Origin: Pseudomonadota bacterium
Lineage (GTDB): Bacteria; Pseudomonadota; Alphaproteobacteria; Sphingomonadales; Sphingomonadaceae
Assembly: GCA_039818985.1 (NCBI GenBank)
Contig: JBCBSU010000001.1
Location: 1,452,367 to 1,516,366, forward strand
DNA: 64,000 bases
Direction: 5' to 3'
Below the pieces are notes generated by a model. It was not told the origin of the DNA, searched no databases, and saw only the letters and a program-made list of their open reading frames with translations. Within the stretch, counting starts at the first letter, position 1; each line of letters opens with the position of its first letter. Of the stretch, positions 6,516 to 8,529 are shown one piece after another. A program made the position numbers and the translations under genes.

Positions 6516-6533
6516 TTACCAGAACGAAACGCA

Positions 6534-7154
6534 TCAGCTAATATCATCTGAATTCTTACTCTGACTTAAAAGCACGAGCATATCTTCATCATTGTACCAA
6601 ATAGACCACCATATCTTTTTATACCAAGGGACATTAGTTCCGGGTAATCTATTATTTATCCAATTTTTGGATAACTTCGAATATTCTTTATAAACCAACT
6701 TCTTGCTCGGTCCAGAGTCATTTTGAATTTTCTCAATTAACTCCTTTGTCATACGATAGTCGCGCGTTAATTGACGGTGAAACCACCTCTTATAAAACTG
6801 TTCGTCAAACAGGTTTTTATGGATTCCCAATGCCACTAATTCATAATTGTTAAGTTGAAAAAATACTGCGTTCCTGTCTTCCTCAGTTTCAGGATTGTCG
6901 CTCGGCTCCGCTAAATCTTTAATGTCAAGATCGGGATCAGAGTCATATCTTCTCAGAATGGCTTTAAACCGATTATATTTGTCGGACCCTACTTCATCCA
7001 AAAACGTATCCAAAATGAAATCCATAGTGGCGCGCTTGCGGGCAACTTTTTTTGTATGCGTATATGTGAAAAACGCAACAACGACTGCTGCAAAGATTAA
7101 TATCACCTCAATGAATGGCGAAGCCGCAATAACTTTGCCGAAAAATTCCTTCAT
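6534..7154 (-). CDS. DUF4760-like membrane-anchored protein, unknown function
   Basis: 206 residues. One transmembrane helix lies near the N-terminus (about 13-30, IEVILIFAAVVVAFF), followed by a basic KKVARKRATMDFIL segment and a long charged cytoplasmic region with NYELVALGIHKNLFDEQFYKRWF. This arrangement resembles DUF4760 proteins; the assignment is by eye. The gene is clearly more AT-rich than its flanks and uses codons rare in the neighbours, which suggests horizontal origin. It converges on xerC. A strong intrinsic terminator and a 14-codon ORF lie immediately upstream. A GAGGGG ribosome site sits unusually close (3 bases) to ATG 7154. Confidence 0.65.
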   Translation of the reverse strand: MKEFFGKVIAASPFIEVILIFAAVVVAFFTYTHTKKVARKRATMDFILDTFLDEVGSDKYNRFKAILRRYDSDPDLDIKDLAEPSDNPETEEDRNAVFFQLNNYELVALGIHKNLFDEQFYKRWFHRQLTRDYRMTKELIEKIQNDSGPSKKLVYKEYSKLSKNWINNRLPGTNVPWYKKIWWSIWYNDEDMLVLLSQSKNSDDIS

Positions 7155-7167
7155 ATGCCCCTCTAAT

Positions 7168-7208
7168 AAAAAGCGCCTTCAAACAATAGATGCCTGAAAG
7201 CGCTTTTT
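7168..7208 (-). terminator. Intrinsic terminator or attenuator upstream of the DUF4760-like gene
   Basis: Read on the minus strand, AAAAAGCGCTTTCA (7208-7195) pairs with TGAAGGCGCTTTTT (7181-7168) across a 13-base loop: 14 pairs with a single G-U wobble, ending in a run of U. This is a textbook Rho-independent terminator for minus-strand transcription. It sits between the 14-codon ORF (7231-7275) and the start of the DUF4760-like gene (7154). Read on the plus strand one pair becomes a C-A mismatch, so the minus direction is favoured. Confidence 0.8.
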
Positions 7209-7230
7209 GCAAGTTTAGGAGATATTGATT

Positions 7231-7275
7231 TTAATCGCCGCCATATCCCTCCATGAAAAAATATCGCTTTGCCAT
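7231..7275 (-). CDS. 14-codon ORF with strong ribosome site, candidate leader peptide
   Basis: ATG at 7275 encodes MAKRYFFMEGYGGD followed by TAA. A near-ideal Shine-Dalgarno (ACAGGAGA) ends 6 bases before the ATG, better than most ribosome sites in this window. The peptide is rich in aromatic residues (Tyr-Phe-Phe, Tyr). About 22 bases after its stop lies a strong terminator hairpin, and about 13 bases beyond that the DUF4760-like gene begins. This is the layout of a transcription-attenuation leader, or else of an independent micro-gene with its own terminator. No homologue is recognised. Expression is unproven. Confidence 0.45.
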   Translation of the reverse strand: MAKRYFFMEGYGGD

Positions 7276-7560
7276 ATGAAATCTCCTGTCAATTATCTAG
7301 CCACTGCGGCTTAGGGGGATAGGATCGCATGGTCAAGAAAATCTAAGAGAATTAGATCAAGCCTGGCAATGCGGAAAGCGTATACCCCCAGCTTTCCGTA
7401 GCGTCACTTTCAACATAAGGAAGCTTGCTAACATTGCAAGTTTAAAGTAACTTTAATAACCCTACAATTAAAGCGCTACAGACCTATTTTTTCCACAGCT
7501 TTATCCACAGTCAGATAACTGAAATAGCCTAGTGTTTACACTCCAAGAGCTTAAGGCTGT
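7276..7560. other. AT-rich intergenic region between the leader ORF and gshB
   Basis: There is no gene in this roughly 285-base stretch. It holds a perfect 8-bp inverted repeat, CGGAAAGC (7372-7379) and GCTTTCCG (7391-7398), with an 11-base spacer; a small inverted pair CTTGC/GCAAG near 7425-7440; and two DnaA-box-like 9-mers at 7489-7509. Composition is markedly AT-rich compared with both sides. A TAGATAAT element just upstream of the leader ORF ribosome site (minus strand) could act as a -10 box. No convincing -35 is seen. Confidence 0.55.
7489..7509 (+). promoter_or_regulatory. Pair of DnaA-box-like 9-mers
   Basis: TTTTCCACA (7489-7497) and TTATCCACA (7501-7509) are direct repeats 12 bases apart, about one helical turn, in an AT-rich stretch. 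The second is a perfect match to the classical DnaA box; the first differs at one position. They could form part of a replication origin, a DnaA-titration site or a DnaA-regulated promoter. Only two boxes were found, which is few for an origin. Confidence 0.4.
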
Positions 7561-8529
7561 CTACTGATTATTCAGCCGCCCCTCAATCGCATCCCAGATC
7601 TTCCCGGCAACATCGCTGTTGTTGAAGGCATCGATGGCAACAATCCCGGTCGGTGAAGTGACATTGATCTCGGTCAGCCATTCGCCGCCAATCACATCGA
7701 TACCGACAAAGGTCAGGCCGCGTCTCTTCAGTTCCGGGCCCATGGCATCGCAGATTTCCTGTTCGCGCGCTGTCAGTTCGGTCGCCTCGGCATAGCCGCC
7801 CTGGGCGAGGTTGGAGCGGAATTCACCCTCGCCCGGCTTGCGGTTGATCGCGCCGACCACCTCGCCATCGACGAGCACAATGCGTTTGTCGCCCCTGGCC
7901 ACTTCGGGAAGGAACGGTTGCACCATATGCGGCTCAGGCCAGGTCTGGTTGAACACTTCCATCAGCGCTGAGAGATTTTCGCCATTTTCGGGGATTTTGA
8001 AGATCGCCTTGCCGCCATTGCCGTGCAGCGGCTTGATGACCAGCGCACCATGGCGCTTCTGGAAATCGCGCACATCATCGAGCGAACGGGTGATCATCGT
8101 TGGTGGCATATAGCGCGCATAATCGAGGACAAAGACCTTTTCCGGCGCGTTACGCACCGATATCGGGTCATTGACCACCAAAGTCTGCCCTCCGAGCCGC
8201 TCGAGCAGATGCGTCGCGGTGATATAGCCCAGATCAAAGGGTGGATCCTGCCGCATCAATATGACATCCACGTCGCGAGCCAGATCGAGCGTCACTGGAT
8301 CACCAAAGCGATGATGGTCGCTCTGAACCGGCTGGACTGTCACCGGATGCGCCTTGCAGATCAGCCGCTCTGCATCATTCGGCCCGGCCTCCCAAGTCAG
8401 CGTCGTCACATCATAATGGTAGAGGCTGTGTCCGCGCTTCTGAGCCGCGAGCATCAGCGCAAAGCTGGAATCACCGGCAATATTGACGCTTTCCATAGGG
8501 TCCATCTGGACGGCAACCGAGAGGCTCAT
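7561..8529 (-). CDS. gshB: Glutathione synthetase
   Basis: 322 residues, standard length. GshB ligates glycine to gamma-glutamylcysteine using ATP. The N-terminal substrate domain starts with VAVQMDPMESVNIAGDSSFAL and contains MRQDPPFDLGYI; the C-terminal ATP-grasp domain has VIKPLHGNGGKAIFKI and ends with ITEINVTSPTGI-type residues (visible as LTEINVTSPTGIVAID). It acts in the cytoplasm in redox defence. It is the last gene of the minus-strand rsmI-yraN-gshB run, 31 bases after yraN. AGGATG precedes the start ATG 8529. Confidence 0.97.
   Translation of the reverse strand: MSLSVAVQMDPMESVNIAGDSSFALMLAAQKRGHSLYHYDVTTLTWEAGPNDAERLICKAHPVTVQPVQSDHHRFGDPVTLDLARDVDVILMRQDPPFDLGYITATHLLERLGGQTLVVNDPISVRNAPEKVFVLDYARYMPPTMITRSLDDVRDFQKRHGALVIKPLHGNGGKAIFKIPENGENLSALMEVFNQTWPEPHMVQPFLPEVARGDKRIVLVDGEVVGAINRKPGEGEFRSNLAQGGYAEATELTAREQEICDAMGPELKRRGLTFVGIDVIGGEWLTEINVTSPTGIVAIDAFNNSDVAGKIWDAIEGRLNNQ

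Follow-up and report, generated by a model that had tools for sequence, protein, structure and literature searches.

A conserved micro-ORF and terminator-like hairpin predicted ahead of core DUF4760 genes of proteobacteria and phages

As judged by sequence comparison, core DUF4760 loci share a conserved arrangement that is missing from annotation, a micro-ORF followed by a terminator-like hairpin, and this arrangement travels with the gene. The best explanation that we can offer, by analogy and with a probability of roughly 0.4, is that promoter, micropeptide, terminator and DUF4760 effector would form a mobile one-gene cassette in which the peptide acts as an in-trans partner. The conservation of the leader suggests that a gene with a likely role in virus defence has an overlooked control element or partner peptide. 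An unannotated peptide gene present in distant proteobacteria and phages would in this way mark a functionally uncharacterised family located in known defence hotspots, and the leader, whether it acts in trans or in cis, provides a sequence handle to find and test the system, of which copies exist in Escherichia coli.

The leader and its insertion in the window

The window, that is, the whole stretch of 64,000 nucleotides analysed, carries the locus between xerC and gshB (Table 1). The sequence-only reading had placed a Shine-Dalgarno (SD) sequence, a 14-codon ORF, a terminator and the downstream gene in a close array, and this arrangement was borne out, with all of them lying within ~135 nt of the minus strand. 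The stem, which had been given as 14 bp, was corrected by folding to 18 bp with a 5-nt loop. The U-run of the terminator does exist, as U5, but it is found inside the stem, where it ends the 3' arm paired with A5 and is followed by AUUA, and this is probably the reason why a simple terminator scan of the window did not list the hairpin. The 136-nt leader has a folding energy of -43.9 kcal/mol (z -4.9; 0 of 200 shuffles equal it), and in this fold the SD of the micro-ORF is predicted to pair with positions 7217-7223, just 3' of the micro-ORF stop. Four of the 14 residues of the peptide are aromatic, and its C-terminal core, E-G-Y, is the part that is conserved. The possible promoter is located ~65 nt 5' of the micro-ORF. 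We also considered a promoter between the hairpin and the DUF4760 gene, rejected as the gap is only 13 nt; a repeated genomic element, rejected as the leader is present once in the genome; and a known Rfam leader element, rejected as there was no match at the window leader or at those of five related loci.

Table 1. Features of the DUF4760 locus in the window
Feature	Positions	Strand	Basis or remark
Insertion of ~1.06 kb between xerC and gshB, containing leader and gene	6516..7572		No alignment in two same-genus genomes
DUF4760 gene, 206 aa, ATG at 7154	6534..7154	minus	PF15956 profile; structure model
SD-like AGAGGGG of the DUF4760 gene	7158..7164	minus	Sequence
Intrinsic-terminator-like hairpin in the gap between micro-ORF and gene	7168..7208	minus	Fold; covariation in nearest relatives
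Micro-ORF MAKRYFFMEGYGGD, 14 codons plus TAA, from ATG at 7275 to TAA	7231..7275	minus	Sequence
SD of the micro-ORF, AGGAGA	7281..7287	minus	Sequence and fold
Possible sigma-70-type promoter, TTGCCA-18-TAGATT, 9/12	7340..7369	minus	Chance level: 5 found vs 3.5 expected
12-mer tandem repeat, 1.9 copies, near-exact TTTATCCACAGC pair	7488-7510		Outside the leader, ~220 nt 5' of it

In two genomes of the same genus the xerC and gshB flanks are 374 and 64 nt apart and nothing aligns to the insertion, whose GC content is 0.389 (6520-7540) compared to 0.581 for the whole window. This absence, together with the low GC, indicates that the cassette was acquired, and the acquired insertion is little more than the leader and the DUF4760 gene. 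The distribution of DUF4760 in the family is patchy (7 of 298 genomes with a protein query). Searches with the PF15956 profile found it in 14 of 385 genomes of the class and 18 of 398 of the phylum, as well as in 11 of 369 genomes in the class of genome G1003 and 10 of 211 in the order. When the leader was used as a DNA query against 298 family genomes, only short matches at background level were obtained, so it is not conserved as DNA.

Two loci from the wider survey look like cassettes broken up by an insertion, an unrelated stretch taking the place of the leader in L096 and everything beyond the first part of the hairpin being replaced in L207. Downstream of the DUF4760 gene of Pasteurella, positions 3093-3179 of L087 match sRNA-Xcc1 of Rfam, and far from the DUF4760 locus the window itself contains tandem glycine riboswitch aptamers (Rfam RF00504; 52039-52252, minus strand).

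Conservation of the leader, the peptide end and the hairpin

We took 88 DUF4760 loci of proteobacteria and phages (in genomes, phages, plasmids and viral contigs, with a rough deduplication) and searched the 300 nt upstream of each by a fixed rule, according to which an ORF of 6-30 codons had to begin with ATG and have an SD. The strict motif was a peptide end [DE]G[WYF] plus at most 4 residues, and a looser form was counted separately. A strict-motif leader was present at 42 of the 88 loci and the looser form at 50, in a set that keeps near-duplicates (for instance, one locus is represented by both L004 and L070, and several of the enterobacterial loci are closely related); the corresponding values were 0.07 (maximum 1) and 0.81 (maximum 5) for dinucleotide shuffles and 0 and 1 for the reverse strand. 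Because many of the 88 loci are enterobacterial relatives, the 54 genome loci chosen regardless of the leader are a fairer set, and they contained 10 strict and 18 loose leaders vs 0.06 and 0.52 in shuffles. According to their PF15956 score, loci with at least 70 bits showed the strict motif in 7 of 22 cases and the loose one in 12 of 22, and those below 70 bits in only 1 and 2 of 28, which was counted against the cassette reading. Within the window, 238 regions upstream of ORFs with 100 aa or more were compared, and only that of the DUF4760 gene has a strict-motif leader.

Leader presence in a protein tree of 78 rows, 51 of them with a leader, amounts to 6 changes, many branches of the tree being weak, and leaderless rows are mostly placed outside the core DUF4760 group; the tree omits L040, L043, L127, L251, L321 and twelve near-duplicates. 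A converse scan of viral contigs for SD-ATG-EGWGG (at least 120 stretches) yielded 12 short ORFs among the 80 loci listed, and 7 of these 12 precede DUF4760. Seven loci found with this motif were included in the surveys of start overlap, codons, SD pairing and 12-mer boxes and in the tree (without L321), and were excluded from the 88-locus and 54-locus motif counts. In the eight annotated phage and plasmid records that contain the leader (L052, L082-L087 and L090), no feature is annotated over it.

The peptides end in an acidic-Gly-aromatic core, as in EGYGGD, EGWGG, EGYVD, NEGWDF or DEFDGF, the codons of which vary synonymously (GAA/GAG, GAC/GAT and all four Gly codons), the aromatic position being W in 18 leaders, F in 13 and Y in 10, with few V, L and T. 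These types of ending follow the effector (DUF4760) tree: EGWGG and EGYVD are found in loci of the window's class, NEGWDF in Acinetobacter phages, EGWDF in Kingella, NEGWEV in Pasteurella, DEFDGF in enterobacterial P2-like phages and DENDGY in two viral contigs. The distance from the motif to the stop varies between 0 and 5 residues, and this was counted against the cassette reading. In the Kingella-type loci L086 and L120, two leaders in tandem (MNKAYSESWNC and MGKIYLEGWDF) stand ahead of one DUF4760 gene.

A strong terminator-like hairpin was found within 140 nt of the stop in 40 of 45 leaders, compared with 1.9 (maximum 5) in shuffles; these leaders were hand-picked and some of them fail the strict motif (L053, L057, L058, L069, L234, L236, L237, L245 and others). 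Two of the remaining five have no hairpin at all and three scored below the threshold. The distance from the leader stop to the start of the hairpin is 13-73 nt in the scanned loci, never less; the arms of the hairpin are unrelated in sequence between groups, and it is positioned in the gap between leader and gene in some loci and in the first codons of the gene in others, the gene start overlapping or abutting the leader stop in the latter. When six close relatives of the window's type were compared, pairing was kept in 66 of 66 cells, and four pairs are changed on both sides, that is, in a compensatory way. The micro-ORF, the terminator and their link to the downstream gene are thus supported by conservation far outside the genus, by synonymous codon changes and by stem covariation, which answers the check that had been put forward, codon-level conservation plus stem covariation in relatives. 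They fit the earlier proposal of an undescribed micropeptide gene with its own terminator.

Tiny SD-led ORFs that end in DEFDGF and a stop (MLDEFDGF, MKDEFDGF, MNDEFDGF and MFSLRKFDEEDFEFFDEFDGF) were also seen in phages without an adjoining DUF4760 gene, often beside a hairpin. Such stray ORFs occur in viral contigs (L157, L158, L180, L184, L138, L150, L167, L176, L175, L137, L200 and L201), and they lie beside gp47 in T4-like Enterobacter phages, near antiterminator Q in Proteus-type phages and by terminase genes in epsilon15-like phages. DUF4760 leaders represent 20 of the 80 loci with the DEFDGF pattern.

Peptide partner, cis control and other readings

Sequence comparison argues that an amino-acid attenuator is unlikely and leaves a peptide partner or a cis-acting leader as readings of the DUF4760 leader. 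An antiterminator was looked for by pairing the 5' arm of the terminator with the upstream RNA, back to 45 nt before the leader, and none stood out (mean z -0.23 over 40 loci, 37.5% of them above their null), the test being a thermodynamic one of the RNA without ribosomes. The most economical interpretation is that transcription terminates by default and that the peptide is the main product. Type III toxin-antitoxin operons follow this logic, and it is what leads to the peptide-partner explanation, according to which most transcripts would stop at the hairpin, the peptide would be produced in surplus and the probably membrane-anchored DUF4760 protein would come from read-through only. The peptide would act in trans as a partner of DUF4760, most likely as an inhibitor. 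Upon phage shut-off of host expression the short-lived peptide would be lost first, and the freed DUF4760 would stop growth or exclude the phage. If so, the peptide would be the counterpart of a type III antitoxin RNA and would be among the smallest coded inhibitors. It speaks against this explanation that, to our knowledge, no antitoxin is as short as 8 residues.

Type III operons contain antitoxin, Rho-independent terminator and toxin in that order, as described in the accessible text of PMC5086642, and DUF4760 loci would resemble ToxIN and AbiQ in having an antitoxin-coding element, a Rho-independent terminator and an effector served by one promoter. Unlike in those systems, the first element of DUF4760 loci is a single short ORF conserved as peptide instead of RNA repeats, and the effector is predicted to be a membrane-anchored helical protein rather than a ToxN ribonuclease. 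ToxN was not seen among the structural matches of the DUF4760 model, and a scan of 7100-7600 revealed no tandem RNA repeats in the window leader that could be an antitoxin. The only tandem repeat in that interval is the 12-mer at 7488-7510, which we take to be DnaA-box-like; TTATCCACA-like boxes 5' of the leader are not general, being present in 2 of 52 loci.

A leader acting in cis is a possible, somewhat less probable alternative. The nascent acidic-Gly-aromatic end would slow or stall the ribosome near the stop, and ribosome state, stop read-through or re-initiation would then set the passage of the polymerase through the hairpin, with translation stress or a phage-made change switching DUF4760 on; this would represent a new attenuator class without the usual antiterminator. 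Consistent with it, the conserved residues are C-terminal and adjoin the stop, and are kept with synonymous codon change, which is the pattern looked for in arrest leaders. Gene start and leader stop overlap or abut in many loci, in several of them with the hairpin inside the gene, and this also points in the direction of cis control. In L256 and L274 the coding frame of the gene follows on directly in the frame of the leader stop, and the membrane helix is not preceded by any ATG, GTG or TTG. In addition, the SD can pair with RNA just past the stop in the window and in the enterobacterial group. However, no antiterminator stands out, and SD pairing is weak overall (mean z 0.40, with 9 of 52 loci above 1.64); a general sequestration of the SD by the stretch after the stop was rejected, as it is clear only in the enterobacterial group and the window. 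At 13 nt or more from the leader stop, the hairpin starts outside the footprint that a ribosome usually has, and one positioned at that stop would therefore not cover it.

It is distinctly improbable that the terminator only limits the expression of a costly membrane protein while the leader serves to hold ribosomes at the 5' end and encodes a peptide without function. The terminator is indeed the most constant RNA element of these loci, but the peptide end is kept through synonymous codons across distant loci, and a functionless ORF would not keep its ending in this manner, which argues that the peptide is under selection.

Very little probability remains for an amino-acid attenuator of the trp/phe type, the idea suggested by the sequence-only reading from the aromatic-rich peptide of the window. 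In the trp, tna, erm and cat leader-peptide attenuators, an SD-led short ORF comes first, then an intrinsic terminator and then the gene under control, and DUF4760 loci share this order; unlike these attenuators, however, they lack a conserved run of regulatory codons and, in the 40 loci compared, a competing antiterminator. Sensing of aromatic amino acids was not upheld: the YFF of the window leader is private to this locus and absent from the leaders of other loci, W, F and Y alternate at the core position from locus to locus, and the pairing does not exceed that of shuffles. Finally, a chance ORF beside an ordinary terminator has a negligible probability: short ORFs with SD-like sites do appear in ~23 of 88 shuffled regions, but the conservation of motif and hairpin and the compensatory changes refute it.

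The DUF4760 protein and its phage context

The window protein belongs to PF15956 (DUF4760) with an E-value of 1.8e-25 and 90.2 bits, vs a curated cut-off of 25. Its AlphaFold2 model (pLDDT 87) is all-helical, with a long N-terminal membrane-type helix running into a bundle, and the model of an E. coli relative (pLDDT 92) has the same architecture; the protein is probably membrane-anchored according to these models. In a VIA-align comparison the highest-ranking matches of the window model were EP domains of the plant proteins EDS1, PAD4 and SAG101 (Z 11.2, 10.3 and 10.0, the next being 4.5; best row with rmsd 3.3 over 127 aligned residues), values which, being below 13, are weak for helical bundles according to the tool's own note. 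EP domains also came top, likewise with Z below 13, for the model of the E. coli relative (Z 12.0 to 8.3 over the first twelve rows, the next being 7.4; best row with rmsd 5.7 over 153 aligned residues). The models of two distant DUF4760 proteins thus align best to this domain in VIA-align only; in contrast, Foldseek against PDB and BFVD gave no fold match at E 0.001 (E above 1), and a sequence search of the PDB with DUF4760 gave no match. An EP-like helical domain may be a lead for these proteins. The likeness was seen for the models of the window gene (6534-7154) and of L093, and is possibly just a common helical arrangement.

Phage-borne antitoxin mimics are known for ToxIN, according to the accessible text of two papers (PMC5086642; PMC3475682). 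By analogy, the micropeptides (8-23 residues with an acidic-Gly-aromatic end) could be antidotes or sensed ligands of a membrane-anchored DUF4760 protein with a possible EP-like domain, in a new single-gene phage-exclusion system, and the stray phage ORFs of the MxDEFDGF type could be antidote mimics, like the phage pseudo-ToxI RNAs directed against ToxIN. We regard this detailed version as improbable.

In P2-like phages of E. coli and Citrobacter the DUF4760 gene is located between portal and replication genes, and in Acinetobacter and Alteromonas phages near the integrase. The P2 hotspot between gpA and gpQ holds old-tin and other anti-phage defence systems, as far as the accessible text of PMC9122126 describes it, and the E. 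coli DUF4760 gene and its leader are found at the same site as this cargo; unlike old and tin, DUF4760 has 0 occurrences in that text. PADLOC reported nothing at the locus and has no model for the DUF4760 protein. We know of no defence test of DUF4760. In the literature text that could be searched, which leaves out most subscription papers and bioRxiv preprints, DUF4760 appears in one study, of a disinfectant-resistant Serratia; nothing was found there on a leader or micropeptide-terminator system of DUF4760, and nothing relevant with DEFDGF or FDEFDG.

Of 5,426 complete E. coli genomes, 1,131 match the query at all and 278 have a place covering at least 80% of it; in the other matching genomes, among the matches listed, only the phage flank before the leader aligns. 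Six of these prophages were inspected, and five of them carry other cargo without a strict-motif leader. The sixth contains a different DUF4760 gene, together with a hairpin and a leader that by eye reads MTVRRIYSEENWDV up to its stop and is outside the strict motif.
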